Source: Sphingosinicella sp. (GTDB taxonomy: Bacteria; Pseudomonadota; Alphaproteobacteria; Sphingomonadales; Sphingomonadaceae). From it: a DNA stretch of 34,785 bases. A program made the position numbers and the translations under genes. Positions 1 through 22,487 of this stretch are shown in pieces (position 1 is the first letter of the stretch; each line of letters starts with the position of its first letter). The stretch covers positions 1 through 34,785 of the forward strand of contig JAEULI010000026.1 in assembly GCA_016793845.1 (NCBI GenBank), read 5' to 3'. The notes below the pieces were generated by a model. The model saw only the letters and a program-made list of their open reading frames with translations, was not told the DNA's origin and made no database searches.

Positions 1-607
1 AGCTGTCGGTGCGGCGGTTGGTATCCTGCCAGAAGAACTGATCGATGAGATAGCCGTGCGCGGCGTGCAGCTCGACGCCGTCGAAACCGAGCCGGAACGC
101 GGAGGTGGCCGCCGAAACGAACGCTTCGACGACGGCATCGATATCGGAGAGCGACATCGGCTCGGCGCCCTTCCACGGCATGACGCCCGGCCCGCCGACC
201 ATGCCCGAGGGGCCGACCTGATCGCCCCGGAGACCGCCCTCGCCTTCGAAGACGCCTTCGACAGGGGCCGGCGCGATGAGGCCCGCGTGCCAGAGCTGCG
301 GCACCATGCGCCCGCCCGCCGCGTGCACTTCGCGAATGACGCGCGCCCAGCCGTCCAGAGCCTTCTCGCCGTGGAAACGCGGCACGTTGTCGTCGATGGA
401 CGCGCCGGCATGATCGATGAACGTGCCTTCGCTGATGATGAGCCCGACGCCGTTCTCGGCGCGGCGGCGATAGTAGCGCGCCACCTCGGGGCCGGGGACG
501 CCGCCCGGCGACAGCGAGCGCGTCATCGGCGCCATCACGACGCGGCTGGAAAGATCGAGCGTGCCGTGCCGGAACGGCCGGAACAGGACCTCGGCGGCGT
601 CCGTCAC
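1..607 (-). CDS. NADH:flavin oxidoreductase (Old Yellow Enzyme family), 3' end beyond window
   Basis: Only the first 202 residues are present; the C-terminal part lies beyond position 1. The reading frame shows the family signatures: VVMAPMTRS near residue 23, SEGTFID near 59, and [17 protein letters not shown] ending in NRRTD near 200. H181 and H184 are the pair that binds the substrate carbonyl in this family. Members bind FMN and reduce activated C=C bonds with NAD(P)H; some are 2,4-dienoyl-CoA reductases, which would fit the beta-oxidation neighbours. The start is inferred as GTG at 607, giving a GTGA overlap of 4 bases with the stop of the acyl-CoA dehydrogenase, so translational coupling is likely. 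No good Shine-Dalgarno is seen. The substrate cannot be told. Confidence 0.85.
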
Positions 608-3709: not shown

Positions 3710-3739
3710 TTGAAACCGATCATGCAAGCGAAATATGAC
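3710..3739 (+). promoter_or_regulatory. Possible promoter of enoyl-CoA hydratase
   Basis: TTGAAA (3710-3715), an 18-base spacer and TATGAC (3734-3739). Against the vegetative consensus this is 5/6 and 4/6. It would start transcription near 3746, leaving a short leader before the ATG at 3773. Confidence 0.4.
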
Positions 3740-3772
3740 CCGGCGACGGGCACGACCTTTGTGGGAGGAAGC

Positions 3773-4561
3773 ATGGCCGAAGCCACCGCCGCGGCGGTTA
3801 CCGTGGAACGCATCGCCGACCATATCGCGCTGGTGACGCTGCGGAGGCCGGAGGCGCGCAATGCCGTGAACGCGGCGGTGACGGCGGGCCTGAGAGATGC
3901 GGTGAGGACCATCGAGAGCGACCCCGACATCTGGGCCGCCATCGTGACCGGCGAAGGCGGCAAGGCGTTTTCGGCGGGCGCCGACCTCAAGGCCGTCTCG
4001 GACGGCGGTATGGGCGGGCTCGTCGATCCGGAATGGGGCTTCGCGGCGTTCGTTCACGCCCCGCGGGACAAGGTTTGGATCGCCGCGGTGGACGGCGCGG
4101 CCATGGCCGGCGGCTTTGAGATCGCACTGTCATGCGACATGATCGTCGCCTCGGAAGACGCGCGCTTCGCGCTGCCCGAGGTGAAGCGCGGCCTCGTGGC
4201 GGCTGCGGGCGGCATCTATCGCCTGCCGCGCACACTGCCCCGCGCGCTCGCGTTCGAACTCATCGCGACGGGCGAACCCATCGACGCCGAGCGCGCACTG
4301 GCGTTCGGCCTCGTCAACCGCGTAGTTCCGAAGGCGGACGTTTTGGGCACGGCGCTTGATCTCGCACAGCAGGTCTGTGCGAATGCGCCGGTCGCGGTTC
4401 GCGAAAGCCTGAAGGTGGCGCGGCGGGCCTTCGACGAAACCGATCCACGGCTGGGTGCGCTCAGCCTCGCCGCGCAGGACGTGATCATGCAGACGGAAGA
4501 CTTCGCGGAAGGACCGCGCGCGTTTATCGAGAAGCGCGCGCCGCGCTGGGCAGGACGCTGA
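3773..4561 (+). CDS. Enoyl-CoA hydratase (crotonase family)
   Basis: A 262-residue crotonase-fold enzyme adding water to a 2-enoyl-CoA. The oxyanion-hole segment AFSAGADL is at residues 65-72, and MAGGFEIALSCD at 111-122 has the first catalytic glutamate E116. The second glutamate is E136 in FALPEVKRG. Both acidic residues are kept, which favours true hydratase activity over dehalogenase or isomerase members. ATG 3773 is chosen because GGGAGGAAGC directly precedes it; the frame is open from 3710, but that extension would run over the predicted promoter. The GntR regulator follows 110 bases downstream on the same strand. With the divergent operon it completes a set of acyl-CoA dehydrogenase, hydratase and hydroxyacyl-CoA dehydrogenase. 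Confidence 0.92.
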   Translation: MAEATAAAVTVERIADHIALVTLRRPEARNAVNAAVTAGLRDAVRTIESDPDIWAAIVTGEGGKAFSAGADLKAVSDGGMGGLVDPEWGFAAFVHAPRDKVWIAAVDGAAMAGGFEIALSCDMIVASEDARFALPEVKRGLVAAAGGIYRLPRTLPRALAFELIATGEPIDAERALAFGLVNRVVPKADVLGTALDLAQQVCANAPVAVRESLKVARRAFDETDPRLGALSLAAQDVIMQTEDFAEGPRAFIEKRAPRWAGR

Positions 4562-4671: not shown

Positions 4672-5412
4672 ATGGGGTTGCTCGCTCAGAAAAAAGCAAA
4701 GCGCAGCGCGGCCGAGCCCGAAAAGGCCGCCGCAAGCGACAGCGCAAGCTCGCCCGACAAGGTGGTGGATGCGATCCACCGCGGCATCCTCGCCGGTCGC
4801 TATGTCCCCGGCCAGAAGCTGATCGAAGCCGATCTCACACAGAGCCTTGGCGTCAGCCGGGGGCCGGTGCGCGAGGCGCTGAAGCGGCTGGACGCGGAAG
4901 GTGTCGTCGAGCTGACCCGCCACCGCGGCGCATATGTGCGCTCGCTGACCCGCATCGAGGCGGTGGACCTGCTGGAAATCCTGGAGCTGCTGACCAGTTT
5001 CATCGCACGCATCGCCGCCACCGCCGTGGCGCGCAAGCGCACGATGGGTGAGCAGAACGCCCGCGAGCTGGAAGAAGCCTTCCATCTGCTGGAACGCTTC
5101 AAGGACCCGACGCTGGAGAACGCGGCCTTCCTGGAACAGCGCAGCCATTTCTATGACGCGCTGATCGCGGTGGGCGAGAATTCCCAAATCCAGTCGGTAA
5201 TGCCGATGATGCGCATCCACCTGCTGCGCCTGCAGGTGCAGCCGTTCTTCAACTCCGAGGACCGGCAGGACCGGCTGAACGAATATGCCGCGATCACCGT
5301 CGCCGTGCTCGGCGGCGACAAGGCCGGCGCGCAGAAGGCCATGCGTTATCACATGACGCATATGCGCCAGCGGATCGCGCAGCTTCCCGACGAAGCCTTC
5401 GCCCGAGGCTGA
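4672..5412 (+). CDS. GntR-family transcriptional regulator, FadR/FCD subfamily
   Basis: A 246-residue regulator. A variable, charged N-terminal tail of about 28 residues is followed by a winged helix-turn-helix (about 29-92, with LTQSLGVSRGPVREALKRLDAEG as recognition region and HRGAYVRSL as wing). An all-helical FCD ligand domain spans about 95-235. In FCD proteins the ligand is usually a small carboxylate or acyl-CoA, often with a metal held by histidines; candidates here are in HFYDALIAVGEN, MRIHLLRLQ and MRYHMTHM. The start is ATG 4672, with AAGG five to eight bases upstream. The perfect TTGT-N3-ACAA elements nearby have the operator form of this subfamily, so it probably controls the divergent blocks around it. 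No such element was seen in its own 110-base upstream gap. Confidence 0.93.
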   Translation: MGLLAQKKAKRSAAEPEKAAASDSASSPDKVVDAIHRGILAGRYVPGQKLIEADLTQSLGVSRGPVREALKRLDAEGVVELTRHRGAYVRSLTRIEAVDLLEILELLTSFIARIAATAVARKRTMGEQNARELEEAFHLLERFKDPTLENAAFLEQRSHFYDALIAVGENSQIQSVMPMMRIHLLRLQVQPFFNSEDRQDRLNEYAAITVAVLGGDKAGAQKAMRYHMTHMRQRIAQLPDEAFARG

Positions 5413-6156: not shown

Positions 6157-6191
6157 CAGCACCCTTCCCTCAGCATCACTCGACATCAAGA

Positions 6192-6258: not shown

Positions 6259-6312
6259 TTTTGACGCAACAAAGATCAAGCCGCGGCTGGACATGCGGCG
6301 ATGGGGAGGACC

Positions 6313-7047
6313 ATGGCGGTACTTTACACGGACCGGGATCGATATGGGCGCGCGCCAGCATCTCCGCTCGTGGAGGCCGTGCAGAACAGCGTGCGCGATC
6401 TCGTGCGCCGACGCTGGGCGGAAAGCGGCGACGACTGGTCCGACTTCGTGTTCGGCTCCTCCGAACGGCTGGTGACCAAGGCCGATATCGAAGCCATCGA
6501 GACGCGCATCCTCGCCACCGGCTATCGCTTCGCCTGGTCCTCGATCCTGTCGCAGCGGGACCGGCCCGAGGCCTATACGTCGGGGGACGCCGGCGACAAT
6601 CCCGATTTCAGCTTCGAGCATCCCGAAGCCGTCACCGAAGCCCCGGACGCCGAAGGCCGCGCGCAGCGCGGTACCGGCGACAACGTGGTGATGCGCGCGA
6701 AGAACACGCAGGGCGTCGCGCTCTATGTCCGCACCAGCGAGCGGGTCGTCGACCTGATGAAAAACGGCGTGCCCGAGGACAGCATCGCCATCATCGACGA
6801 TAGCGGCGGCACGCTGACGGCGCCCATTCTGGAAAAATTCAAGGGCGTAATCTGCGCCGGCGGCACGGTCCGCTCCCACCTTGGCATCCTGACGCGCGAA
6901 TACGGTATCCCCTGCCTGATGAACGCGCGGATCAGCGGCATCCGGAACGGCGACCGCGTCGAGATCGAAACGAGCGCCGCGGCACGCACCGCCGAATCCT
7001 ATCAAAGCGGCGTCGAGATGCCGGCCCGCGTCTGGAAACTCGCATGA
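6313..7047 (+). CDS. Stand-alone PEP-utilising enzyme mobile (phosphohistidine) domain protein
   Basis: A 244-residue protein. The N-terminal 120 residues are not recognised. The C-terminal half is a phosphohistidine swivelling domain as in PEP synthase and pyruvate phosphate dikinase: a leading segment near 145-180, then GGTVRSHLGILTREYGIPC at 183-201 with H189 in the position of the phosphorylated histidine, then the closing GDRVEIE strand. It has neither an ATP-grasp nor a PEP/pyruvate barrel, so it must work with partners. The start is ATG 6313 because GGGGAGGA precedes it; an in-frame ATG at 6301 lies before that site. It overlaps the next gene by 4 bases (ATGA). Split dikinase systems such as phenylphosphate synthase are the nearest known logic; identity with those is not claimed. 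Confidence 0.85.
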   Translation: MAVLYTDRDRYGRAPASPLVEAVQNSVRDLVRRRWAESGDDWSDFVFGSSERLVTKADIEAIETRILATGYRFAWSSILSQRDRPEAYTSGDAGDNPDFSFEHPEAVTEAPDAEGRAQRGTGDNVVMRAKNTQGVALYVRTSERVVDLMKNGVPEDSIAIIDDSGGTLTAPILEKFKGVICAGGTVRSHLGILTREYGIPCLMNARISGIRNGDRVEIETSAAARTAESYQSGVEMPARVWKLA

Positions 7048-8573
7048 ACCGCCCGAGCTACGCCGATATCCTCGAGGCGAACAACCTGATGCAGTCCATC
7101 GGGGACGAGACCTACTGGCTGTGCCTGACGCGCACGGTGCAGGAATCGAAGCTGTTCCCGGTTTCGGCCTACATCATGTTCTCCTACGTGAACGCCTTCT
7201 ACCGCTACCCGTCGCTGCTGCGGAAGATCGAGGCGCGGATGCCGGCCGAGGAGATCGCCGATCGCAGCCGCAACATGGGCATCAAGATCCAGAACTCCCA
7301 CATGGGCTGGTGCCTGCCGGCATTCTACCTGCTGGGGCGCGAATGGCTGATCTCGCTCGGCCTGCTGCGGCCGCAGGACGCGCTGGAGGACGTGATCTAC
7401 GTGCTCGATTTCTGGAAACGCTTCCAGCTTTCCTGGCACCGCAACAGCGGCCATCGCACCAACCGCGAATACGGCCACCGCGCCCAGATTCTCCCTGACC
7501 GCCGCCTGGAAATCTTCCGCGACGACATGTTTGCCTGCGAACCGGGCGACGATCTGCACGCCGCCGCGCACGCCTTCATGGCGACGGCCTCGCAATACGG
7601 CTTCCTCGTCTCCTGCGAGAGCCGGATCAGCCTCACCAACTCCGGCCCCTACCGGATCGACGACCACCACGAAATGCTGGTCCGCGACTTCATGGACATG
7701 GCTGAATGCTCGCTGCCATGGCTGGACGGTGTCGCTGCGGACGTGCCGTACAATAATTTCACCGTCGCCATGTCGGTACGCGATTGCCATTTCCACCTCG
7801 TCGACGACTGGGGCAGCTTTGAATCGACACCGGGCTTCACCGCCGACAAGCTCGCCGGTGTCGGCCTCTACACCTCCGATCCGCTCACCGAGGGCTTCGT
7901 CCCGCTCGGCATGGGCTCGCGCGAAGAATTGACCGAAACGTTCCGCGAACTGAACGACATCCTGAAGGATGCCACCAACAAGCTGTGGATGCGCATGGCC
8001 GACTGGACGCGCGATCAGCTTCTGGAAGCCGGCGCGCTCATTTATTTCGCCGTCGTCAAGGACCTCGCGCACGTCGCTGGCGTGTTCGAGGTCGAGGACT
8101 GGATGGAGATCGATCCGCGTGCCGAACGGTTCCGGCCGCTGTTCAACGACGAATACGGCAATGTAGCGCTCGGCGAACTCGTCGCCGGCCTCACTTTCCC
8201 GAACCAGCAGGCCTCGCCGTTCACGATGATGCAGCATTCGGACAGGCCGACGCGCATGTTGACCCCGATTCCCTACTCGGTGCTTTCGGGCGAGGACTAT
8301 GTGCCGACGTCCGGCCCGATCCAGCGCGGCACGACGACGCTCGATCCCAAGGTCGATCGCTATTGCACCTCGCGCGGACGGCTGACGCTCGAGGAATACA
8401 ACCGTCTGGCACAGGAGCACGTGCCGGAGGTCTGCTCCGACAAGTATCGCTACCTCTGCGAGACCTGGCTCAAATACAATGCGCACACCCCGCTCGCCGA
8501 CGAACTCTACAAGGTCGAACAGCGCCAGTCGCGGACGCTGAAGGATCGCGGCGTGCGGAAGGGCGAAGCCTGA
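7044..8573 (+). CDS. Unrecognised 509-aa protein in phosphotransferase operon
   Basis: I do not recognise a family. The protein has no signal peptide and no membrane segment, and is rich in aromatic residues. A histidine-rich stretch, WHRNSGHRTNREYGHRAQ, lies near residues 134-151, and a second polar cluster, VRDCHFHLVDDWGSF, near 248-262. The size and soluble character fit a catalytic or acceptor-binding subunit. It overlaps both neighbours (ATGA with the mobile-domain gene, one base with the acyl-CoA ligase), which implies equimolar, coupled expression. Since the dikinase-like protein of this operon lacks an acceptor-binding barrel, the simplest inference is that this subunit binds the molecule to be phosphorylated. 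A purely structural or carboxylase-associated role cannot be excluded. Confidence 0.85.
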   Translation: MNRPSYADILEANNLMQSIGDETYWLCLTRTVQESKLFPVSAYIMFSYVNAFYRYPSLLRKIEARMPAEEIADRSRNMGIKIQNSHMGWCLPAFYLLGREWLISLGLLRPQDALEDVIYVLDFWKRFQLSWHRNSGHRTNREYGHRAQILPDRRLEIFRDDMFACEPGDDLHAAAHAFMATASQYGFLVSCESRISLTNSGPYRIDDHHEMLVRDFMDMAECSLPWLDGVAADVPYNNFTVAMSVRDCHFHLVDDWGSFESTPGFTADKLAGVGLYTSDPLTEGFVPLGMGSREELTETFRELNDILKDATNKLWMRMADWTRDQLLEAGALIYFAVVKDLAHVAGVFEVEDWMEIDPRAERFRPLFNDEYGNVALGELVAGLTFPNQQASPFTMMQHSDRPTRMLTPIPYSVLSGEDYVPTSGPIQRGTTTLDPKVDRYCTSRGRLTLEEYNRLAQEHVPEVCSDKYRYLCETWLKYNAHTPLADELYKVEQRQSRTLKDRGVRKGEA

Positions 8574-10051
8574 TGCAGGTCGGCTCCCTCATCCGCCGCG
8601 CGGCGATGCATTACAAGGATGCGCCCTGCCTCGTCGAAGACACGCGCATCGTCACCTTCCGGGATTTCGACAGGCTCACCGATCAGCTCGGAAATGCACT
8701 GCTCGCGACCGGTCTCAAGCCCGGCGACCGCGTCGGCGTGCTGCTGCCGAACGGTATCGATTGCCTCGTCGCTTATTATGCACTGGCGAAATCGGGGCTG
8801 GTGCGCGTGTCGCTGAACACGCGCGAGACGCCCGACAATCATGCCTACAAGCTCGCCGACAGCGGCAGCCACGCCGTGATCTGCGGCGACGAGGAAATCG
8901 TTCCCGAGACACTCGACTTCGTGTTCCGTCCCGACGAGATCGCCGAGATGACATCGACCGGAGCGCAGACACCCTGCGCCGTCGATCGCGATCTGGAGGC
9001 TCCCTACCGCCTTGGCTACACGGGCGGCACCACAGGGCGGCCCAAGGGTGTGACGCTGACCATGCGCGGCGAGACCGCCGAACTTTCCGCCTTCCTCACC
9101 GATCTGATGCCAGACATGCGGCAGGGCGATACTTTCCTGCACGCAGCGCCCATCGCCCACGCCTCGGGCGCGTTCTTCCTGCCCGCGCTCGTGCGCGGCG
9201 TGCGGTCGCTGGTGATGAAGAAATTCGATCCGGCCTCGTTCATCGCGCTCGCCGAGGCCGAACAGGCTTCGATGACCTTCCTGGTGCCGACCATGCTGGC
9301 GATGATCATGGAGCAGCCGGCCTGCGAAAGCGCCGATCTCAGCCTGCGTCGCATCGCCTATGGCGCCTCCCCCATCGCCGAGACGCTGCTGCGCAAGGGC
9401 GAGGCGCGCTTTGGCAAGGTATTTGCGCAGACCTATGGCCAGGCCGAAAGCCCGATGGTGATCACCTGCCTGAAACCCGACGAGCACGACCGCGTCGGAT
9501 CGTGCGGGCGCCCGTTCACGACGGTGGAGGCCGGCATCGTCGACGACGACGACAATTTCCTCGCGCCCGGCGAGATCGGCGAGATCGTCTGCCGGGGCAC
9601 GCAGCTGATGGCCTATTACTGGGACCGGCCCGAAGCGACGGCCGAGGCGTTCCGCAGCGGCTGGCTGCACACCGGCGACATCGGCCGCATGGACGAGGAC
9701 GGTTTCTTCTACATCCTCGACCGCAAGAACGACATGCTGATCTCCGGCGGATACAATGTCTATCCGCGCGAGGTGGAGGACGTGCTGCTCGCCTATGACG
9801 GCGTCGTCGAGGCAGCGGTCGTCGGCCTTCCCGACGAGAAATGGGGCGACCGCGTGATCGCCGTCATTTCCGGCCGCGACGGGATCGACGGTGATGCGGT
9901 GCTCGCGTTCGTGAAGACGAAGCTCGCCAACTACAAGCAGCCGAAATCGATCGAGATCTGGACGGAGCTGCCGAAAAGCGGCGCCAACAAGATCCTGCGG
10001 CGCGAGATCCGCGACACCATAGCCGCCCGCCCGATGGCGGCGGCGCAATGA
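8573..10051 (+). CDS. Acyl-CoA ligase (AMP-forming, ANL superfamily)
   Basis: A 492-residue adenylating enzyme that forms an acyl-CoA from a carboxylic acid, ATP and CoA. The P-loop-like YTGGTTGRPKGV is at residues 149-160. An aromatic-A5-type segment, AQTYGQAESP, lies in the middle, then GWLHTGDIGRMDEDGFFYILDRKNDM with the ribose-binding Asp and hinge, SGGYNVYPREVE, and the C-terminal catalytic lysine in SGANKILRRE (about K473). ATG 8573 shares one base with the preceding stop (TGATG). The acid cannot be read from the sequence. Its place between phosphotransferase genes, upstream of a biotin carboxylase and a thiolase, suggests that it activates the carboxylated product. The next gene overlaps by 4 bases. 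Confidence 0.93.
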   Translation: MQVGSLIRRAAMHYKDAPCLVEDTRIVTFRDFDRLTDQLGNALLATGLKPGDRVGVLLPNGIDCLVAYYALAKSGLVRVSLNTRETPDNHAYKLADSGSHAVICGDEEIVPETLDFVFRPDEIAEMTSTGAQTPCAVDRDLEAPYRLGYTGGTTGRPKGVTLTMRGETAELSAFLTDLMPDMRQGDTFLHAAPIAHASGAFFLPALVRGVRSLVMKKFDPASFIALAEAEQASMTFLVPTMLAMIMEQPACESADLSLRRIAYGASPIAETLLRKGEARFGKVFAQTYGQAESPMVITCLKPDEHDRVGSCGRPFTTVEAGIVDDDDNFLAPGEIGEIVCRGTQLMAYYWDRPEATAEAFRSGWLHTGDIGRMDEDGFFYILDRKNDMLISGGYNVYPREVEDVLLAYDGVVEAAVVGLPDEKWGDRVIAVISGRDGIDGDAVLAFVKTKLANYKQPKSIEIWTELPKSGANKILRREIRDTIAARPMAAAQ

Positions 10052-10665
10052 TCGGAACCGTCATGAGCCCCAGCCATCTCGTGCTCCACGGCCTTGCCAT
10101 CAAAAAGCACGCCGATGCCGGCGACATCGCCGGGCTGATCGGCCTTGCCGCCGACGATACGGCGCGGCGCCTCGACGACGCCGTGGCGAGCGGCCGCGCC
10201 GTGCAGGTGAACGGCAAGTACCTGCTGACGCCGCTCGCGCGCATCGCGCTCGAAAGCGATTATTCGCGGCACTATGCCGACATTCGCGAGGATGCGGATT
10301 TCTTCGCGGCCTATGAGGCGTTCGAGCGGATCAACGTGCAGTTGAAGGCGCTGATCACCGACTGGCAGACGATGGACGTGGGTGGGCAGCGTGTCGCCAA
10401 CGATCACAGCAACAGCGCACACGATGCGAAAGTGATCGACCGGCTCGGCGAGCTTCACGAACGCGCGGATGCCATTCTCGGCAAGCTGGCGGCGGGCCTG
10501 CCTCGCCTCGACTATTACCGCCGCAACCTGCTCGTCGCGCTCGAGAAGGCCGAGGACGGCGCCATCGAGTGGGTCAGCGACGCCAAGATCGAGAGCTATC
10601 ACACGTTGTGGTTCGAACTGCACGAGGACCTGCTGCGCATCGTCGGCAGAGAGCGGGCGGAATAG
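10048..10665 (+). CDS. Unrecognised 205-aa protein with winged-helix-like N-terminus
   Basis: No family is recognised with confidence. Residues 7-70 look like a small winged helix (SPSHLVLHGLAIKKHADAGD, then a two-helix segment and a VNGKYLLTPLAR wing-like hairpin). Residues 75-200 are mostly helical and strongly charged (AYEAFERINVQLKALITDWQ, then ELHERADAILGKLAAGLPRL). It begins at ATG 10048, overlapping the ligase stop by 4 bases; ATG 10063 is an alternative. It ends four bases before the dikinase-like gene. Despite the winged-helix look, the tight coupling between ligase and dikinase genes argues for a small structural or regulatory subunit of the phosphotransferase rather than a free transcription factor. 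This is inference. Confidence 0.8.
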   Translation: MIGTVMSPSHLVLHGLAIKKHADAGDIAGLIGLAADDTARRLDDAVASGRAVQVNGKYLLTPLARIALESDYSRHYADIREDADFFAAYEAFERINVQLKALITDWQTMDVGGQRVANDHSNSAHDAKVIDRLGELHERADAILGKLAAGLPRLDYYRRNLLVALEKAEDGAIEWVSDAKIESYHTLWFELHEDLLRIVGRERAE

Positions 10666-10669
10666 GCCG

Positions 10670-12409
10670 ATGGCGATCCCGCTCGGAGACTGGGTTCTCG
10701 CGCTCGACGGCAGCACGCTGCCGGACAAGGCGCTGATCGGCGGCAAGGCGTGGTCGATCGCGCGCATGGGCGCGCTCGGCCTCCGCGTGCCGCCGGCATT
10801 CGTCATCACGACGCGGGCGTGTGCGCACTATCTTCACGAAGGGTCGGAACCCGCATCGCTGGCGCGCGAGATCGCTGCGGGGATCGCGTGGCTCGAACAA
10901 CAGACGGGTCGCCGCTTCGGCGCCGGTCCCAGCCCGCTGCTCGTCTCCGTCCGTTCGGGTGCACCCATTTCGATGCCGGGCATGATGGACACCGTGCTCA
11001 ACCTCGGTATCACCGATGAAACCGAAGCGCAGCTCGCGGCGGAATGCGGCGACGCCGGCTTCGCCCGCGACACGCACCGCCGGTTCCTCGATCTTTATGC
11101 ACACATCGTGCTGAAATCGGAGGCGGCACTGGCCGTGGACGGCCATCCTGCGGACTGGCGGAACGCCATCGCCGCCGGTGCCGGGGAATCCGTACCGGAC
11201 GCGGTCGAGGAGCAGCTTGCGCGCGCGGTGCACGCGGTCTTCGAATCCTGGAATTCGCGGCGCGCGCGGCGCTACCGCGAGCATCACGATATTCCCCACG
11301 ATCTCGGCACCGCCGTGGCCGTGCAGGCGATGGTGTTCGGCAACATGGACGAGAACTCCGGCACCGGCGTTCTGTTCAGCCGCAATCCGTTGTCGGGTGA
11401 ACCCACGCCCTACGGCGAATATCTCCCACGCGCGCAGGGCGAGGACATCGTTTCCGGCAAACACACGCCGCAACCGCTCGAAGCGCTGCGCACGCACCTG
11501 CCCGACGTCCACCAGGAACTGCTGACCGCCGCAAGCCTGCTGGAGGACGCAGGGGGCGACGTTCAGGATATCGAATTCACGCTGGAAAAGGGCATCCTGT
11601 ACCTGCTCCAGACCCGCGCCGCGAAACGCGCACCGCGCGCGGCCGTGAAGATCGCCGTGGACATGGTGGCCGAGGGCAAGATCGACCCGTCCGAGGCGCT
11701 CGCGCGCGTCTCCAGCGAACAGATTCGCACGTTGCTGAGCCCGCAGCTCGCCAGCGGCGCCGCGCAGGGCGCCGAGATCGTCGCACGCGGAGAGGCCGCT
11801 TCGCCCGGCGTTGGCACCGGCGTGGTCGTGCTCGATTCCGACGAGGTCGAACGGCGCGCGGCGAACGGCGAGGCTGTCGTGCTGGCACGCGCCACGACCA
11901 GCCCCAACGACCTGCACGGCATGATCGCCGCGCGCGCCATCCTGACCGAACAGGGCGGATCGACGAGCCACGCCGCCGTCGTCGGCCGCGCGCTCGGCCG
12001 GCCGTGCGTCGTCGGCTGCGGCGCGGGCAGCCTCGGCGCGCTTGCCGGCGAAACCGTCACCGTCGATGGCCAGAACGGCATCGTCTATCGCGGCGCGCTG
12101 GACGTGGTGACGCCGCATGAAAACGACGACGCGGCGCTGCGGCAGATCGCGGCCTGGGCCGCGCATCAGTCCACGGTGCTGGTGACAACCGCGCAGAGCA
12201 ATGGCGCAAGCATCCGTTTCGACGAGAACATCGAACAGACCGAAGCGCTGATCGCGGCGCTGGAACCCGGCGCGACCGTGGAAGGCGCGCTGTTCGCGAA
12301 TGACGACAAGGCCGTGCGGGCGGTGATCGCGGCAGGCGCGGCGACGATCGTGACCTCGCCCGCGCTTCCGGCCCTTCTGGCGGCGGCGCAGGCCGCTGGC
12401 CGCGAATGA
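10670..12409 (+). CDS. Pyruvate phosphate dikinase-like protein lacking the PEP/pyruvate domain
   Basis: A 579-residue protein colinear with the first two domains of pyruvate phosphate dikinase (normally about 880 aa). The ATP-grasp half shows GGKAWSIARMGALGLRVPPAF (24-44), VRSGAPISMPGMMDTVLNLG (94-113), MVFGNMDENSGTGVLFSRNP (221-240), YGEYLPRAQGEDIVSG, and DIEFTLE with E302 and LLQTRAAKR with R316. The mobile domain has LTEQGGSTSHAAVVGRALGR with phosphohistidine H434. After residue 495, where the barrel should begin, there is only an unrelated tail of about 85 residues. It should therefore phosphorylate H434 from ATP but needs another subunit for the final acceptor. ATG 10670 follows the previous stop by four bases. 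Confidence 0.9.
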   Translation: MAIPLGDWVLALDGSTLPDKALIGGKAWSIARMGALGLRVPPAFVITTRACAHYLHEGSEPASLAREIAAGIAWLEQQTGRRFGAGPSPLLVSVRSGAPISMPGMMDTVLNLGITDETEAQLAAECGDAGFARDTHRRFLDLYAHIVLKSEAALAVDGHPADWRNAIAAGAGESVPDAVEEQLARAVHAVFESWNSRRARRYREHHDIPHDLGTAVAVQAMVFGNMDENSGTGVLFSRNPLSGEPTPYGEYLPRAQGEDIVSGKHTPQPLEALRTHLPDVHQELLTAASLLEDAGGDVQDIEFTLEKGILYLLQTRAAKRAPRAAVKIAVDMVAEGKIDPSEALARVSSEQIRTLLSPQLASGAAQGAEIVARGEAASPGVGTGVVVLDSDEVERRAANGEAVVLARATTSPNDLHGMIAARAILTEQGGSTSHAAVVGRALGRPCVVGCGAGSLGALAGETVTVDGQNGIVYRGALDVVTPHENDDAALRQIAAWAAHQSTVLVTTAQSNGASIRFDENIEQTEALIAALEPGATVEGALFANDDKAVRAVIAAGAATIVTSPALPALLAAAQAAGRE

Positions 12410-12915
12410 AAGGACAACAACGGGTGGGAAACATTTCCACGAACGATATCCAGTCGCTGATCCAGCTCTTCGAGAAGAGCGACTGGCGCGAAATGCATCT
12501 GATTCTCGGCGAGACCGACCTGTTCCTCAGCAAGGATCGGAATGCCCAGACCCAGATCTCGCTGACGACGGCGTCCCCTTCGGTGCCCGCGCCCTCCCAC
12601 CGCGCATCGGTTCCGGCGACGCCCGTTGAGACGCCCGATCCGAAGCCGCACGGCAGCAAGATTCCGGCCGGCTGGACGCTGGTGAAGGCGCCGAGCCTCG
12701 GCACGTTTTATCGCGCGCCGAAACCGGGAGCGCCGATGTTCACCGAAATCGGCGCGCAGGTCGCCGCGGATTCGGAGCTTTGCCTCATCGAGGTGATGAA
12801 GCTGTTCACGACATTGAGGGCGGGAACGCACGGCACCATCCGCGAGATTTACGCGAAGGACGGCGAACTCGTGGAATTCGATCAGCCGCTGTTCCTGATC
12901 GAGCCCGATGCCTGA
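12406..12915 (+). CDS. Biotin carboxyl carrier protein (AccB type)
   Basis: A 169-residue carrier. A short N-terminal helical region is followed by a Pro/Ala/Thr-rich linker (about 50-85) and a biotinyl domain. The AccB-type thumb is visible as LGTFYRAPKPGAP (98-110), and the biotin attachment site is EVMKLF with K132. It carries carboxybiotin between the biotin carboxylase and the carboxyltransferase that follow. ATG 12406 overlaps the dikinase stop (ATGA). A GTG at 12424 is preceded by AAAGGA at good spacing and would give a 163-aa protein, so either start is possible. It overlaps the carboxylase gene by 8 bases. It is probably a dedicated carrier of this operon rather than the housekeeping acetyl-CoA carboxylase subunit, given the type of carboxyltransferase beside it. 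Confidence 0.95.
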   Translation: MKGQQRVGNISTNDIQSLIQLFEKSDWREMHLILGETDLFLSKDRNAQTQISLTTASPSVPAPSHRASVPATPVETPDPKPHGSKIPAGWTLVKAPSLGTFYRAPKPGAPMFTEIGAQVAADSELCLIEVMKLFTTLRAGTHGTIREIYAKDGELVEFDQPLFLIEPDA

Positions 12916-14293
12916 TACCGCGCCACCGAATGGACGGCTGTTCGTCGCGAACCGGGGCGAGATCGCGCTTCGGGCCATTCGCGCCGCGCAGGCGCTCGGC
13001 ATGGAGGCCGTGCTCGGGGTTTCGGTGGCGGACCGCGACGGGCTCGGCGCGCGCACCGCGAACCGCTGCGTCGTGCTCGGCCCGGCGCAGGCGCGCGATT
13101 CCTATCTGAATGCCGGACTGATCGTGCACGCCGCCGTCAGCACGGGGTGCACCGCGCTTCATCCCGGTTACGGCTTCCTCTCCGAACGCGCCGAACTCGC
13201 CGAACTTTGCGCACAGGAAGGCATCACCTTCGTGGGCCCTACGCCGGAATCGATCCGGCAGGTGGGTGACAAGATTTCGGCGCGGGCGATGGCGCGGGCC
13301 GCGAACGTTCCGATGACGAGCGGCACCGATGCCGTGGAAGACGTGGCACACGCCCTGAAGCTTGCCGAGGAAATCGGCTATCCCGTGATCACCAAGGCTT
13401 CGGCCGGTGGCGGCGGGCGCGGCATGGTGGTGGCGCGCAATGCCGAGGAGCTGGCCGGCGCCTTCGATCAGGCGGTGACGACGGCGCGCGAAGCCTTCGG
13501 CGACGGGACGCTGTTCATCGAACGCTATGTCGAGGTGGCGCGGCACATCGAGGTGCAGGTGATCGGCGACGGCAGAGGCGGCGTCGTGCATTTCGGCGAA
13601 CGCGATTGTTCGATCCAGCGGCGCTACCAGAAGATGATCGAGGAAGCCCCGGCGGCGATCCTGTCTCCGGCGGTCCGCGCGCGCCTTCACGAAGCCGCCG
13701 TGCGCCTGCTCGCCTCGATCAACTACCGGAACGCCGGCACGGTCGAATTCCTCTACGATACGACCACCGAGGAATTCTTCTTCATGGAGGTGAACGCCCG
13801 CATCCAGGTGGAGCATCCCGTTTCCGAGGCGATCACCGGCGCCGATCTCGTGCAGGCGCAGCTGAGGCTCGCGACAGGTGCCGTGAAGGGCTTCGCCCAG
13901 AAGGATGTGCACACAGCCGGGCACGCCATCGAAGCGCGGATCATCGCGGAGGACCCCGACCGCGACTTCATCCCCTGCCCCGGCCGCATCACCCGCTGGG
14001 ATCCGCCCTCGGGCGAAGGCATTCGCGTCGATACGGCGGTCGAAAGCGGCACGATGATCCCGCCTTATTACGACAGCATGATCGCCAAGCTGATCGTGCA
14101 CGGCAACACGCGCGCGGAGGCCATAGACCGCCTCGCCGCCGCGCTCGACGATTTCACGGTCGAGGGCATCGCCACCAACATCCCGCTGCTGAAGGTCATC
14201 GTGGCGCACGAGGACTTCCGCTCGAACACCATCAATACGCGCTGGCTGGAAACGGTGCTGCTTCCCGCCTTCCGCGCTGAGCAAGGACGCTGA
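12908..14293 (+). CDS. Biotin carboxylase
   Basis: A 461-residue ATP-grasp enzyme that carboxylates biotin on the carrier using bicarbonate and ATP. NRGEIALRAIRAA is at residues 15-27, HPGYGFLSE at 85-93, and GDK with K121. K163 precedes the glycine loop ASAGGGGRGM (164-173). FGERDCSIQRRYQKMIEEAP and FMEVNARIQVEHPVSE follow, with the metal-binding Glu and Asn, the bicarbonate-site Arg and the catalytic Glu all kept. The closing segment has the usual IPPYYDSMIAKLIVHG. It is a stand-alone BC subunit of normal length. It starts at ATG 12908, inside the end of the carrier gene, and the carboxyltransferase gene begins two bases after its stop. Confidence 0.96.
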   Translation: MPDTAPPNGRLFVANRGEIALRAIRAAQALGMEAVLGVSVADRDGLGARTANRCVVLGPAQARDSYLNAGLIVHAAVSTGCTALHPGYGFLSERAELAELCAQEGITFVGPTPESIRQVGDKISARAMARAANVPMTSGTDAVEDVAHALKLAEEIGYPVITKASAGGGGRGMVVARNAEELAGAFDQAVTTAREAFGDGTLFIERYVEVARHIEVQVIGDGRGGVVHFGERDCSIQRRYQKMIEEAPAAILSPAVRARLHEAAVRLLASINYRNAGTVEFLYDTTTEEFFFMEVNARIQVEHPVSEAITGADLVQAQLRLATGAVKGFAQKDVHTAGHAIEARIIAEDPDRDFIPCPGRITRWDPPSGEGIRVDTAVESGTMIPPYYDSMIAKLIVHGNTRAEAIDRLAAALDDFTVEGIATNIPLLKVIVAHEDFRSNTINTRWLETVLLPAFRAEQGR

Positions 14294-14295
14294 AA

Positions 14296-15750
14296 ATGGC
14301 GCATGTTGAATTCCTCGACCAGACCATCCGCGACGGCCAGCAGAGCCTGTGGGGCATGCGGCTTCAGGCCGGCATGGCGCTGCCCGCCGCCTCGTGGCTC
14401 GACAAGGCCGGCTTTCGCGTCATCGATCTCACCGGCTCCAACCATTTCGAGGTGCTGATCCGGCATTGCCGGGAGAACCCGTGGGATATGATGGACGCGC
14501 TGGTGGAAGCGATGCCGCGCACGGTGCTGCGCTCGGGTATGCGCTCCAACGCCTCTGTGACGTTCCGCACGACGCCCGACGCGCTGATGGATGCGTGGAT
14601 GCGCCAGCTCAACGTGCATGGCGCGCGTAGCTTCTGGATCTACGACGTGCTGTTCAACATCGACAAGATGCTGCGGCTGGCGAAGGTGGCGAAGGAGTTC
14701 GGTTCGGAGGTCGCGGGCGCGATCATGTTCACGCTCTCGCCCGTGCACAGCGACGCCTATTACGCGGACAAGGTCGACAAGCTTTCGGCATCCGATGATA
14801 TCGACACGATCCTGCTCTACGACACCGCGGGCGTGCTGGAGAAAGAGCGGCTTTCGACATTGCTTCCCGCGATCGTCTCGAAGGCACGCGGCAAGCCGAT
14901 CGAATTCCACGCCAACAATATCCTCGGCCAATCCGGCAAGGCTTACCTCGACGCTATCCCGCTCGGCGCCACCATCCTGCACACCGCCAGCCGTCCGATG
15001 GCGAACGGCCCGTCGGTGCCTTCCACCGAAAGCGTCGTCGCGAACATCGAACTTCTGGGGCACACGCACAGCCTCGACAAGAACCTGTTCGCGCCCGTCG
15101 CCGATCATTTCGAGCGTGTCGGCAAGGCGGCGGGTTTCCTCGTCAACCAGCACAACGAATACAACGTGCTTTCGACGCTGCACCAGATTCCGGGCGGCAT
15201 GGTCGGCACGCTGAAGGCGCAGCTCGCGCAGCACAACATGTCCGACCGTTTCGAGGACGTGCTGAAGGAAGTCGCCGTCGTGCGCCGTGAACTCGGCTAT
15301 CCGGGCATGGCGACGCCGTTCAGCCAGCTCGTCGGCATCCAGGCGGTGCTGAACGTCGTGAAGGGCGAGCGCTACGCTATCATCCCCGACGAGATCGTCG
15401 AGTACGCCGCCGGCTATTACGGCGAGACGGTCGCGCCGATCGACCCCAACGTGCTCGACCGCATCATGCAGAGCCCGCGCGCGAAGGAGGTGCTCGACAA
15501 TCCGCCCGAGCAGCCGACGATCGAGGAGCTGCGAAAGCGTTACGGCACCGACAATGACGATGAGCTGATCCTGCGCGCGCTGATGCCCGAATCCGATCTC
15601 CAGAAGATGCGCGAGGCAGGGCCGCTTAAGCGGACCTATCCGCTGCTCTCTTCGCCCGAGCTTGAGGAAGTGGGGTGGCTGATGAAACTCGCGAGCCTGC
15701 CCGTTGTGCAGTTCAAGAACGCCGAGATGGCCCTGACGCTGAGGCGCTGA
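14296..15750 (+). CDS. Carboxyltransferase subunit, pyruvate carboxylase/oxaloacetate decarboxylase-like, with altered metal site
   Basis: A 484-residue protein with an HMGL-like TIM barrel (about 5-265) and a PYC/OADA domain (IPGGMVGTLKAQL, about 298-310). Its relatives move CO2 between carboxybiotin and the methyl group of a 2-keto acid. The first signature is kept as DQTIRDGQQS with D13. The lysine that is carbamylated and binds metal in the family motif KDMAG is replaced by tyrosine here (Y175 in LLYDTAG). The HxH pair is H205-A-N207, so the second histidine is lost. The segment ANGPSVPSTE also differs from MSGxTSQP. It is probably a carboxyltransferase for an uncommon keto or enol substrate; loss of activity is less likely because it is locked into a complete operon. 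AAGGA precedes ATG 14296. Confidence 0.9.
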   Translation: MAHVEFLDQTIRDGQQSLWGMRLQAGMALPAASWLDKAGFRVIDLTGSNHFEVLIRHCRENPWDMMDALVEAMPRTVLRSGMRSNASVTFRTTPDALMDAWMRQLNVHGARSFWIYDVLFNIDKMLRLAKVAKEFGSEVAGAIMFTLSPVHSDAYYADKVDKLSASDDIDTILLYDTAGVLEKERLSTLLPAIVSKARGKPIEFHANNILGQSGKAYLDAIPLGATILHTASRPMANGPSVPSTESVVANIELLGHTHSLDKNLFAPVADHFERVGKAAGFLVNQHNEYNVLSTLHQIPGGMVGTLKAQLAQHNMSDRFEDVLKEVAVVRRELGYPGMATPFSQLVGIQAVLNVVKGERYAIIPDEIVEYAAGYYGETVAPIDPNVLDRIMQSPRAKEVLDNPPEQPTIEELRKRYGTDNDDELILRALMPESDLQKMREAGPLKRTYPLLSSPELEEVGWLMKLASLPVVQFKNAEMALTLRR

Positions 15751-15753
15751 CGG

Positions 15754-16950
15754 ATGCGCCGCGCCGTCATCGTCGATACCGTTCGGACGCCGTTCGGACG
15801 CGGGCGCGCCGGCGGCGTGCTCGACGGAATCCATCCCGTCGATCTCTATGCCAATGTGCTGCGCGGCCTCGTCGCGCGCACCGGCATCGATCCGGCGCTG
15901 GTGGAGGATGTCATCACCGGCTGCGTGATCCAGGTCGGCGAGCAATCGGGCAACATCGGGCGCCATGCTGTGCTCGCAGCGGGCCTTCCGGAAAGCGTGC
16001 CGGCGGTGACGCTCGACCGCAAGTGCGGCTCGGCGCAGCAGGCCTGCGATTTCGCCGCGCAGGGCGTGATCGCCGGAGCCTATGACGTCGTCATTGCCGG
16101 CGGCGTCGAGATGATGAGCCTCGTGCCGATGCGCGCCAACCGCCTTGGCAGGGATACGGACGGCGTCCAGTTGAAGCAGCGCTATCCGGAGGGGCTGGTC
16201 CGGCAGGGCATCTCCGCCGAACTGATCGCCGCGCGCTGGGGCATCTCGCGCGCCGAGATGGACGCCTTCTCGCTGCGTTCGCACACCCGCGCCGCAGCAG
16301 CCGAAGACGCGGGGCTGACGGCGCGCGCGGTCGTGCCGGTCGACGTTCCCACGGCGGACGGCGGCGTGCGGAGTGTGACACACGACGAGGGTCTGCGCCG
16401 GGACACGACGCTTGAACGCCTCGCCAATCTGAGGCCCGCGTTCGAGGACGAAGCCATGCTGCGGCGCTATCCGCAGATCCGCTGGAGCGTCACCGCCGGC
16501 AATTCCAGCCAGGTGACGGACGGCGCTAGCGCGACGCTGATCATGGAGGAAGCGCTCGCCCGGCGGCTCGGCCTCAAACCCCGCGCGGCGATCACGCACT
16601 TCGCGGTCGCGGGCGACGACCCGATCCTGATGCTGACCGCGATCATACCCGCCACCCGCAAGCTGCTGGCGCGCGCGGGCCTCGGCGTGGACGATATTTC
16701 GACGTTCGAAGTGAACGAGGCGTTCGCCTCGGTTCCGCTCGCCTGGCAGAAGGATCTCGGCGCCGATCCGGAACGGGTGAACGCTTATGGCGGCGCCATC
16801 GCGCTCGGCCATCCCGTCGGCGCATCGGGCGGGCGGCTTCTCGCCAACCTGCTGACCACGCTTGAAGAGACGGGCGGGCGCTACGGTCTTCAGACCATGT
16901 GTGAATCCGGCGGCATGGCGAACGCGACGCTGATCGAACGGCTGCAATGA
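15754..16950 (+). CDS. Thiolase (acetyl-CoA acyltransferase)
   Basis: A 398-residue degradative-type thiolase that cleaves a 3-ketoacyl-CoA with CoA to acetyl-CoA and a shortened acyl-CoA. The nucleophile is C91 in [28 protein letters not shown] (about H353) and the second cysteine in [10 protein letters not shown] (about C383) complete the active site. The length is typical. It begins three bases after the carboxyltransferase stop. In this context the likely substrate is the CoA ester of the beta-keto acid formed by the carboxylase and the ligase, by analogy with acetone and acetophenone degradation. A general beta-oxidation role together with the genes at 1-4561 is the alternative. Confidence 0.94.
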
Positions 16951-16960
16951 GACAGGACAG

Positions 16961-17947
16961 ATGACCACACGCAACGACTGGACCCGGCGGGAAATCGCCG
17001 CGCTGTTCGACATGCCGTTCAGCGACCTCCTGTGGGAGGCGCAGACGGTGCATCGCCGCCATCACGACAGCAACGCCGTGCAGCGCTCCACGCTGCTGTC
17101 CATCAAAACGGGCGGCTGCGCGGAGAACTGCGGCTATTGCAGCCAGTCGGCGAGCCACGACACGGGGCTGAAGGCCTCGAAGCTGATGGATGTCGACGCG
17201 GTGGTCGCGGCGGCTGCCGAAGCGAAAGCGGCGGGATCCGAGCGTTTCTGCATGGGCGCGGCATGGCGGAGCCCGAAAGACCGCGACATGGACGCGGTCG
17301 TCGCCATGGTCCGGCGCGTGAAGGCGCTCGGCCTTGAAACCTGCATGACGCTCGGAATGCTGAGCGACGACCAGACGCGCCGGCTCGCCGAAGCGGGCCT
17401 CGATTATTACAATCACAACATCGACAGCGCGCCCGAATATTACGCAAACGTGGTGACGACACGCACGTATGACGACCGGCTGGAAACGCTGGAGCGCGTG
17501 CGCGAGAACGGCATCGCCGTCTGCTGCGGCGGCATCATGGGCATGGGCGAAAGCCGTACGGATCGCGTGGGCTTCATCCATGCGCTCGCGACATTGCCGG
17601 AACACCCCGCGAGCGTGCCGATCAACCAGCTCGTGCCCATCGCGGGAACACCGCTCGGCGACATGCTGATGGGCACGCCGCTCGCGCAGATCGACGAGAT
17701 CGAATTCGTGCGCACGGTAGCAGTTGCACGCATCGCCATGCCCGCTGCGGTGATCCGGCTCTCCGCGGGCCGTGAGAGCATGACAGACGCAGCGCAGGCG
17801 CTGTGTTTCCTCGCCGGCGCCAACTCCATCTTCACTGGCGACCGGCTGCTGACGACCGGAAACGCCGGCACCGACCGCGACGCCGCGCTGTTCGCCAGGC
17901 TGGGAATCAAATCCGCAGCCGCGGAGAAGACGGCAGCGGCGGCATGA
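16961..17947 (+). CDS. bioB: Biotin synthase
   Basis: A 328-residue radical SAM enzyme that inserts sulfur into dethiobiotin. The SAM [4Fe-4S] cluster ligands are C53, C57 and C60 in [13 protein letters not shown]. The [2Fe-2S] sulfur-donor ligands are C97 ([10 protein letters not shown]), C128 (LETCMTLG), C188 (IAVCCGG) and the arginine of [20 protein letters not shown] and [12 protein letters not shown] are also typical. It sits 10 bases after the thiolase with AGGA before the ATG. No other biotin genes accompany it, so it most likely boosts the last step of biotin supply when the biotin-dependent carboxylase of the same operon is made. It overlaps the next gene by 4 bases. Confidence 0.97.
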
Positions 17948-18633
17948 GTGCCCGCCGCATCGAGGCGATCGTTTTCGATGTCTACGGCACGCTGCTCGAT
18001 GTCTCCGCCATCGGGGCGAACGCGGATGCTGCTTTCCCCGGTCACGGCGCCGCCATCGCGGCGTTGTGGCGGCAGAAGCAGATCGAATACACGATGCTGC
18101 GCACGCTCGGCGATCGCTACGCCGATTTCCTGCAGGTGACGCACGACGCGCTCGGCTTCACGCTCGAGCAGCTGGGCCTGCCGCGGGATTCAGGAACGAT
18201 GGCCGCGCTGCTTGCCGATTACCGTCACCTGCGGCCGCATCCCGAAACGCTCGCGGCGCTCACCGCGCTGCGCGGGACCGGCCTCGGCATGGCGGTCCTG
18301 TCGAACGGAACCCCAGACATGCTGGAGGACGCGCTCGGCAACGCCGGCGTGCGCGATCTCCTCGATGCGGTCCTCAGCGTCGATCCCCTGCGCCGCTACA
18401 AGATCGCGCCGGATGTCTATCGGCTGGGAACCGACCACTTCGGCCTCCCGGCGAGCGCCATCCTGTTCGTTTCGTCGAACGGCTGGGACATCGGCGGCGC
18501 GGGCTGGTTCGGCTACACGACGTTCTGGATCAATCGCGCCGGCGCGGCGACCGAGCGGCTGGGCATCACCCCCGATTTCGTGGGCCGTTCCCTTGATTGT
18601 GTTCGCCGATGGGTCGGCGAACACAATCGCTGA
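17944..18633 (+). CDS. Type II haloacid dehalogenase-like HAD hydrolase
   Basis: A 229-residue HAD-superfamily protein close to L-2-haloacid dehalogenases. [10 protein letters not shown] has the nucleophile D12. [41 protein letters not shown] and [17 protein letters not shown] match the signatures of that subgroup, including Arg, Ser-Asn and Lys positions important for halide release. In the usual KPxP motif the first proline is replaced (KIAP). The reaction would be dehalogenation of a 2-haloacid, though many family members act on other small acids. It is the last gene of the plus-strand operon, starting at ATG 17944 inside the bioB stop. Its final codons form a perfect hairpin. Why a dehalogenase is here is not clear. 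Confidence 0.85.
18595..18628. terminator. Perfect 15-bp hairpin between convergent operons, inside a gene end
   Basis: The arms 18595-18609 and 18614-18628 are exact inverted repeats with a 4-base loop (TGGG). The structure encodes the last residues of the dehalogenase and lies 16 bases from the stop of the convergent minus-strand gene. No T-run follows on either side, so this may be a bidirectional transcript-end stabiliser or a Rho-assisted stop rather than a classic intrinsic terminator. Confidence 0.55.
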
Positions 18634-22438: not shown

Positions 22439-22487
22439 GATCACTCCCTCGGATGCGCTGTTCGTTCGACTATGTCGGCGGTGGTTC

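Follow-up and report, generated by a model that had tools for sequence, protein, structure and literature searches.

What does a barrel-less relative of pyruvate, phosphate dikinase (PPDK), together with a second phosphohistidine protein, do in an operon for biotin-dependent carboxylation? The question is raised by contig JAEULI010000026.1 of Sphingosinicella sp. (GCA_016793845.1), which at its full length of 34,785 bases is the window analysed here and which comes from a genome that is 83% complete and in 187 contigs. A first-pass annotation of the window had placed these genes in an ATP-driven ketone carboxylation pathway that proceeds by way of an enol phosphate. We now propose that the operon degrades a ketone in the manner of the Hpe/Acv pathway, by phosphate tagging followed by biotin-dependent carboxylation, although with a different, modular kinase, a proposal that we consider evenly poised between being right and being wrong. 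Gene calls were taken from the list of open reading frames (ORFs) and from Pfam and NCBIfam scans, and the genes concerned are as follows.

6301..7047, + strand: swv (P0001), stand-alone phosphohistidine swivel protein, PF00391 at residues 159-222, His193 in GGTVRSHLG
7044..8573, + strand: u509 (P0002), 509-aa orphan family, proposed acceptor-substrate-binding subunit
8573..10051, + strand: AMP-forming acyl-CoA ligase (AMP-binding)
10048..10665, + strand: u205 (P0004), 205-aa protein with a MarR-like winged-helix N-terminal domain (about residues 1-80) and a helical part
10670..12409, + strand: barrel-less PPDK, ATP-grasp and swivel, His434 in GGSTSHAA, proposed phosphoryl donor
12406..12915, + strand: biotin carboxyl carrier protein (BCCP; Biotin_lipoyl), biotin motif VMKL at residue 130
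12908..14293, + strand: biotin carboxylase subunit (BC)
14296..15750, + strand: PYC/OADA-type carboxyltransferase (CT) with an altered metal site, Lys replaced by Tyr175 and the second His by Asn207
15754..16950, + strand: thiolase of the acetyl-CoA C-acyltransferase type
16961..17947, + strand: biotin synthase BioB, CAENCGYC, TIGR00433 at 393 bits against a cut-off of 225
17944..18633, + strand: haloacid dehalogenase (HAD) hydrolase, haloacid dehalogenase type II, motif DVYGTL, TIGR01428
5422..6189, - strand: Y_phosphatase3 phosphatase, divergent gene, P-loop HCAAGKDR, PF13350 at E 1.7e-60

Every gene that the first-pass annotation had listed was confirmed by the ORFs and the Pfam and NCBIfam scans, and to its list we add the HAD gene at the end of the interval and the divergent PF13350 gene; u509 and u205 matched no Pfam or NCBIfam family. 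The eleven genes from 6301 to 18633 follow one another at distances between -8 and +10 bases (-4, -1, -4, +4, -4, -8, +2, +3, +10, and -4, in order). The longest frame of swv begins at 6301, from which His193 is numbered, and aligned relatives favour a start at 6313. The earlier view that this is one operon-like unit holds, as the order is kept in Sphingobium estronivorans and the set is found in large part in other classes as well. Specifically, S. estronivorans AXB (G248), which like Novosphingobium rosa (G213) belongs to the family of the window genome, keeps the ten genes from 6301 to 17947 in the same order with 56-90% protein identity. The terminal HAD gene gave no hit across 46 kb of that contig and is therefore probably not part of the core. 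Judged by sequence comparison, the identities of the genes, their conserved catalytic motifs and their conservation as a set are established; the order of the steps, the phosphoryl relay, the position of the tag and the ketone substrate are what we infer.

Members of the u509 family are rare in the order to which the window genome belongs, being present in six of 296 sampled genomes, the window's own and one distant match included. Among named genomes, a nine-sequence alignment picked out 103 stretches encoding relatives, of which the best 80 make up the locus set used here. Counts on these loci rest on identity thresholds (e.g. 45% for the ligase, which leaves out the 33-38% ligases of reordered sphingomonad clusters) and, for phosphatases, on three PF13350 queries and one SurE query; co-occurrence was taken from these counts because the protein clusters partly lump swv, u509, and u205. 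The first-pass annotation had suggested checking the families at 7044 and 6313 for co-occurrence with the carboxylase. In our counts swv lies near u509 in 74 of the 80 loci and CT in 52, along with u205 (71), the short PPDK (54), BC (48), a PF13350 or SurE phosphatase (48), the acyl-CoA ligase (40), an Rv3169-like protein (21), HyuA/B (4), and BioB (1). Where at least 9 kb is available on each of the two sides (n = 46), swv and u205 are always present, CT in 39, PPDK in 37, BC in 36, and a phosphatase in 31. CT and PPDK both occur within the fetched u509 stretch in 46 of all 80 loci, and in three (L042, L043, and L051) a full-length CT stands immediately behind u205. The 80 loci, in which much of the set recurs, are from Proteobacteria and Actinomycetota. 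Plasmid pSA1 of Novosphingobium resinovorum holds the same parts in a different order. An actinobacterial form, known from plasmids of Rhodococcus pyridinivorans P23 and of R. oxybenzonivorans S2-17 (pRB98 in the latter), includes genes for OB-fold, thiolase, tyrosine phosphatase, and SRPBCC proteins. That the parts are retained despite reordering argues for a functional unit. Three of the loci (L040, L048, and L094) are titled as metagenome-assembled genomes (MAGs) of Klebsiella pneumoniae or Bifidobacterium breve, titles that look wrong: L040 and L048 have a gene order like that of gammaproteobacterial MAGs, and the CT of L094 groups with Nanopelagicales.

The dikinase of the operon consists of PPDK_N and PF00391 only. 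Its ATP-grasp domain and phosphohistidine are present, the phosphoenolpyruvate (PEP)/pyruvate barrel PF02896 is not, and its best PDB match stops at PPDK residue 538 of 874. It resembles the short-form PPDK model PRK05878 (NF004531; 715 bits against a cut-off of 456) in its ATP-grasp and GGSTSHAA swivel, but in the absence of the barrel the PPDK reaction is not expected of it. Since a separate PPDK-type frame of 904 aa is found elsewhere in the genome, the operon copy is probably not the housekeeping enzyme. These features bear on another explanation, an ordinary pyruvate or acyl-CoA carboxylase joined to a PPDK with no special chemistry. Such an operon is what the NCBIfam names suggest (pyruvate, phosphate dikinase; acetyl-CoA carboxylase subunits), yet swv and u509 are frequent companions and CT has altered metal ligands and falls in a separate clade. 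We give this explanation almost no credence, and an ordinary PPDK/pyruvate carboxylase operon is rejected on account of the missing barrel, the separate PPDK-type frame and the altered CT.

Two distinct swivel domains occur, one within PPDK and the other being swv. The swivel His of swv is kept in all 122 ungapped rows of the alignment (one gapped row excluded) and His434 of PPDK in 54 of 54; these counts, like those of CT residues and the CT tree given below, are inflated by three genomes that are present twice (L016/L021, L018/L054, and L019/L061). Across the 32 loci L069 to L100 the copy number of swv equals that of u509 in 31, the one unequal locus (L098) being cut by a contig end. Of the 20 loci that have at least three swv-u509 pairs, 18 contain a single PPDK and the other two, which are cut by contig ends, contain none; in L070 the swivel and u509 of one paralogue pair are fused. 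Hence swv and u509 form a module. Duplicates are seen in Actinomycetota (L069 to L091), where two extra paralogue pairs of swv and u509 adjoin the main cluster over about 2.4-8.3 kb; extra pairs occur in 20 of the 32 loci L069 to L100, and L081 has three. Many of the loci L069 to L091 also encode an Rv3169-family protein (NF053593), and Rv3169-like genes are found near L054 and L067 too.

The pairing in copy number and the fusion, together with a locus in genome G016, suggest u509 as the acceptor-binding part and a donor that can be swapped. At the G016 locus (L020, 2120-16322) three overlapping frames encode a distant relative of u509 (22-25% identity) and, behind it, a swivel and a PEP-binding barrel, and no ATP-grasp was found among the frames scanned, a search limited to these frames and with the contig end just upstream. 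Its neighbours are an Rv3169/DUF7064-7065 protein, a CoA-transferase, and HyuA-like and HyuB frames, so that this may be a PEP-driven kinase near an acetone-carboxylase-type enzyme. On a more far-reaching interpretation, swv and u509 would belong to a new class of modular small-molecule kinase resembling the phosphotransferase system (PTS), in which phosphoryl groups pass from the PPDK His to the swv His and on to a substrate held by u509, a family for which no fold is recognised, duplicated swv-u509 pairs draw on the same donor, and ketones are primed for one or the other of two unrelated types of carboxylase. Within such a relay the donor in G016 would be the PEP-binding barrel and not ATP-grasp. 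We hold this interpretation only tentatively, as possible rather than probable. The third small protein, u205, was modelled by AlphaFold2 (AF2) from 53 of 70 available sequences, the window's included, with a mean predicted local distance difference test score (pLDDT) of 94.5; residues 1-80 of the model resemble MarR-type winged helices (Z about 12), the structural matches being confined to this N-terminal part, and we propose that u205 may be an adaptor or regulator.

The carboxylase is the second half of the unit. CT resembles the PYC/OADA enzymes, with a best PDB match at E 2.7e-58, and its metal site was read against the two best solved sequences, the pyruvate carboxylase beta subunit and the oxaloacetate decarboxylase alpha subunit. 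In the window CT, Tyr175 stands at the lysine position, presumably that of the carbamoylated metal ligand, and Asn stands at the second His of H-x-H. In an alignment of 66 rows, the window included (only rows free of stops and longer than 350 aa were used), the lysine position is Y in 39, E in 23, and K in 4, and the second His is N in 36 and H in 30; Asp13, His205, and Thr340, which we take to be the catalytic Asp, the first His and the biotin-site Thr, are kept in all 66. A midpoint-rooted tree of 73 rows (70 different; the Hpe-type row of genome G123 is not included) separates 65 rows from eight, the latter being the plasmid stretches L011 to L014 and four Hpe-type CTs, with support 100/99; L012 and L015 are among its long branches. 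The four K-bearing CTs are those of L011 to L014, in which swv and u509 gave no hits. A Rhodocyclaceae MAG (L066, 16019-20418) has three tandem CT genes (52%, 51%, and 58% identity to the window CT) and no BC hit counted.

The closest studied relative of this carboxylase operates in the Hpe pathway. According to PMC9618137, HpeHI of Rhodococcus rhodochrous GD02 phosphorylates the phenol, HpeCBA accepts only the phosphorylated ketone and gives a carboxylated product that retains the phosphate, HpeD then takes the phosphate off, and HpeE and HpeF are proposed to activate and cleave the product; the Hpe/Acv pathway for acetovanillone, in which it is the acetyl group that is carboxylated, belongs to the breakdown of lignin compounds, with AcvABCDEF as the counterpart in Sphingobium SYK-6. 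In PMC12167813, HpeHI is a relative of rifampin phosphotransferase made up of two components and is grouped with CreHI and PpsAB as two-component phenolic dikinases. The window shares with Hpe/Acv an ATP dikinase with a swivel domain, a three-component biotin carboxylase of like kind (35% identity between its CT and that of an Hpe/Acv-type cluster), a phosphatase, a CoA ligase, carbon-carbon cleavage to an acyl-CoA, and overlapping genes. It differs in having a split swivel, u509, u205 and a barrel-less PPDK in place of HpeH/HpeI, a CT of another clade with the Lys replaced, a Y_phosphatase3 (PF13350) instead of the NagD-like HAD HpeD, and a thiolase instead of the HpeF hydrolase. With the whole group of HpeHI, CreHI, PpsAB, and rifampin phosphotransferase it has in common that ATP-grasp is apart from the acceptor-binding part with a His swivel between them, whereas its dikinase is PPDK-like with a second swivel of its own and its acceptor domain is not detectably related. 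The swivels themselves are akin, as swv matches the HpeH-type swivel in hhalign at 97.1% (E 6e-11).

Direct membership in Hpe/Acv is rejected because of the kinase, the phosphatase and the cleavage enzyme. HpeH, a kinase type of about 600-650 aa with a substrate domain and a C-terminal swivel, gave no hit at 30% identity over 200 aa in the 80 loci, and the two PRK08296 matches in the 83% complete window genome are both swivel-sized. Hpe/Acv-type clusters are present in three members of the window's family (G019, G030, and G123), assigned by gene order and family following PMC9618137 rather than against reference HpeH/HpeB sequences, in the order HpeH-, HpeI-, BCCP-, CT-, and HpeD-like, with a BC hit in G123 only; they differ from the window in kinase and phosphatase and, for G019 and G030, also in CT clade. 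The cluster in G019 ends with a BioB 66% identical to that of the window (L145, 13608-14585), and carboxylase operons may recruit their own BioB. Plasmids of Pseudomonas putida YC-AE1 (L011, 5883-11365), Sphingomonas bisphenolicum AO1 (L013, 5972-11357), and Novosphingobium humi (L014, 5929-11317), two of which we take to be bisphenol A degraders, carry biotin carboxylase clusters that include a HAD gene and a CT of the Hpe side, in which the Lys is kept. L011 and L013 have no HpeHI among their annotated genes and a Tm-1-like ATP-binding protein in front; in L014, which is without annotation, the Tm-1-like frame was judged by eye from the sequence. This gene may encode yet another type of kinase, the third, acting on 4-hydroxyacetophenone. 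The exact gene set of the window was not found described in searches of an open-access library, so the claim that no such pathway is known applies to the set, which is conserved and apparently undescribed as such, and does not extend to its logic, since the scheme is known from Hpe/Acv.

The terminal HAD was dropped as the candidate phosphatase in favour of the PF13350 gene, as it scores as a haloacid dehalogenase type II and has no hit in S. estronivorans. Y_phosphatase3 or SurE is present in 28 of the 46 loci that hold CT and PPDK, a count that does not support a phosphatase in every cluster, and the phosphatase families vary between lineages. Among the 18 other loci, three (L087, L093, and L097) have a HAD with DWDGT and one (L080) a partial phosphatase-family frame.

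We put forward a hypothetical mechanism in which ATP would phosphorylate His434 of the barrel-less dikinase (10670-12409), and the phosphoryl group would pass on, probably via His193 of swv (6301-7047), to the hydroxyl of a hydroxy-ketone held by u509 (7044-8573), with u205 helping or regulating. The phosphate would be a tag and not a leaving group. BC and BCCP would form carboxybiotin, from which the PYC-type CT would carboxylate the carbon adjacent to the ketone. The phosphate would then be taken off by the Y_phosphatase3 protein (5422-6189), or by SurE or a HAD in other lineages, the acyl-CoA ligase would yield a beta-ketoacyl-CoA, and the thiolase would cleave it. The adjacent acyl-CoA dehydrogenase (ACAD), enoyl-CoA hydratase (ECH), and 3-hydroxyacyl-CoA dehydrogenase (3HCDH) may complete the product by beta-oxidation, and BioB may provide biotin. 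As to the ketone, estrone was suggested by the name S. estronivorans and set aside, the cluster being far too widespread; among the papers listed for estrone in an open-access library none was on such genes, and among those listed for benzophenone-3 (R. oxybenzonivorans S2-17) none was on these.

The first-pass annotation had the phosphate in another place, and in this respect our mechanism departs from it. Its conserved unit of phosphotransfer, biotin carboxylase, CoA ligase, and thiolase stands, with a parallel in Hpe; its enol phosphate is not supported. In that scheme the dikinase module makes the enol phosphate of the ketone, and carboxybiotin carboxylates the pre-formed enol with loss of the phosphate. 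An enol phosphate is what PPDK and PEP synthase natively produce, and the replacement of the carbamoyl-lysine in this CT clade (Y 39, E 23, K 4 of 66) looks as if enolisation were no longer the task of CT. However, the barrel that does the enol chemistry is absent from the window PPDK, and a nearby phosphatase, of which an enol phosphate has no need, is frequent. Relatives of u509 also occur near Hyu-type genes, related to the acetone carboxylases, which generate their own enol phosphate. Two genomes (G210 and G224) have the same Tyr/Asn CT and no kinase, and a carboxylase that occurs without a kinase is evidence against the enol phosphate being obligatory. The frequent phosphatase and these two genomes agree better with a phosphate tag that is retained, and in Hpe the phosphate sits on the phenol and stays on the product (PMC9618137). 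We consider the enol phosphate quite improbable.

The relation to the biotin-free acetone and acetophenone carboxylases is one of logic, in that ketone carboxylation is presumed to be ATP-driven and followed by CoA activation and cleavage; their HyuA/HyuB subunits are absent from the ten window operon proteins scanned. HyuA/HyuB genes of the acetophenone-carboxylase superfamily do lie near u509 relatives in the four loci counted above and in G016, whose HyuB has an Acetone_carb_G domain (PF08882, E 1.2e-6).

The two kinase-less genomes also support a different division of labour, in which the carboxylase and the kinase serve one pathway at separate intermediates, the carboxylase taking a ketone or acyl-CoA that bears no phosphate and the kinase priming another step, e.g., the loss of a hydroxyl by phosphorylation and elimination. 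The first-pass annotation had named carboxylase homologues that regularly lack the phosphotransferase genes as evidence against its pathway, and this is borne out in part: among the seven of 296 genomes of the order with a CT of at least 59% identity, G210 and G224 are such cases, u509 being present in the other five. In both genomes BCCP adjoins CT, a BC 60-63% identical is on the same contig, and CT keeps Tyr and Asn; the only PPDK matches are frames of about 900 aa. These CTs nest within the 65 rows of the window's side of the tree, with moderate support (88/81). The CT and BCCP row of G210 (L178, 2682-11847) includes two thiolase-like genes, OB_ChsH2, ECH, two ACAD, and a metallo-beta-lactamase-fold gene (families were scanned in L178 only), and that of G224 (L179, 2091-11309) is similar by tblastn; both rows are reminiscent of steroid side-chain clusters. 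In the same direction point 15 of the 80 loci, by their titles mostly gammaproteobacterial MAGs, that have Y_phosphatase3, swv, u509, and u205 and no PPDK in the fetched stretch, some with CT and most with a short-chain dehydrogenase/reductase (SDR) behind. Recurrence at the level of the genome, by contrast, counts in favour of phosphate tagging: of 12 genomes chosen for their loci, namely L022 with the whole cluster and 11 proteobacterial MAGs whose fetched u509 stretch lacks PPDK, 10 have CT and nine a PPDK 55-64% identical. In the one genome inspected, G539, PPDK, BCCP, BC, CT, and thiolase stand in a row as a second cluster away from u509; an Rv3169-like gene is near this second cluster. 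Nevertheless, CT and PPDK share the u509 stretch in 46 of the 80 loci, CT follows u205 directly in three, and HpeCBA needs the phosphate (PMC9618137). We think separate intermediates unlikely, although less so than the enol phosphate.

Several results weigh against phosphate tagging as we propose it. G210 and G224 are 99 and 100% complete and have the close CT with no u509 match, and R. opacus (L015) has a 47% identical CT, with Glu at the lysine position, while a search of its 19 kb for swv, u509, and PPDK gave no hits; from these three, carboxylation may need no tag at all. PF13350 and SurE were not found in 18 of the 46 loci with CT and PPDK, and the window phosphatase has no relative in the 46 kb of S. 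estronivorans. The transfer from swivel to swivel is our conjecture, and the role of u509 is read solely from gene position. The u509 profile compared with a five-sequence HpeH-type profile gave 0.6% in hhalign, both profiles being of low diversity, so that the two may still be distantly related. The AF2 model of u509 (from 54 of 77 available sequences, the window's included; pLDDT 93) had no Foldseek match in the PDB at E 0.001 (best E 0.86), and the best match in the VIA search was Z 2.4 over 93 residues at 5.4 Å. This null result does not amount to a new fold; rifampin phosphotransferase is not listed for the model, which excludes nothing on a RIF-binding fold. Lastly, HyuA/HyuB of the gammaproteobacterial loci score best, below cut-off, as caprolactamase subunits.

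If phosphate tagging is correct, phosphorylation before carboxylation would be a catabolic strategy wider than the few described Hpe/Acv clusters, spanning Proteobacteria and Actinomycetota. The orphan family u509 would then have a function, as would barrel-less PPDKs, now annotated with a reaction not expected of them, and if the relay is correct, other short "PPDKs" may be misnamed donors. The reason for phosphorylation in these pathways, left open in PMC9618137, would become testable.

The genes upstream of the operon, from which the beta-oxidation steps mentioned above are drawn, are in part conserved as well:

4672..5412, + strand: GntR/FCD regulator, 73% conserved in S. estronivorans
3710..4561, + strand: ECH, 75% conserved in S. 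estronivorans
2814..3671, - strand: 3HCDH, 77% conserved in S. estronivorans
604..1920, - strand: ACAD, of a protein cluster with members in 14 clustered sources, the window included

GntR, ECH, 3HCDH, and SDR neighbours are common to the window and S. estronivorans at 72-77% identity, and the window ACAD has no match among the hits in the 46 kb of that contig. No tRNA genes and no Rfam matches at gathering scores were found in the window. Downstream, between 18644 and 34735, the window encodes several SnoaL-like proteins, a TonB receptor, a pair of Fer2 and molybdopterin oxidoreductase, and an OprB porin, and an FAD protein at 20678-22444 (- strand) matches 3-ketosteroid dehydrogenase models under their cut-offs.

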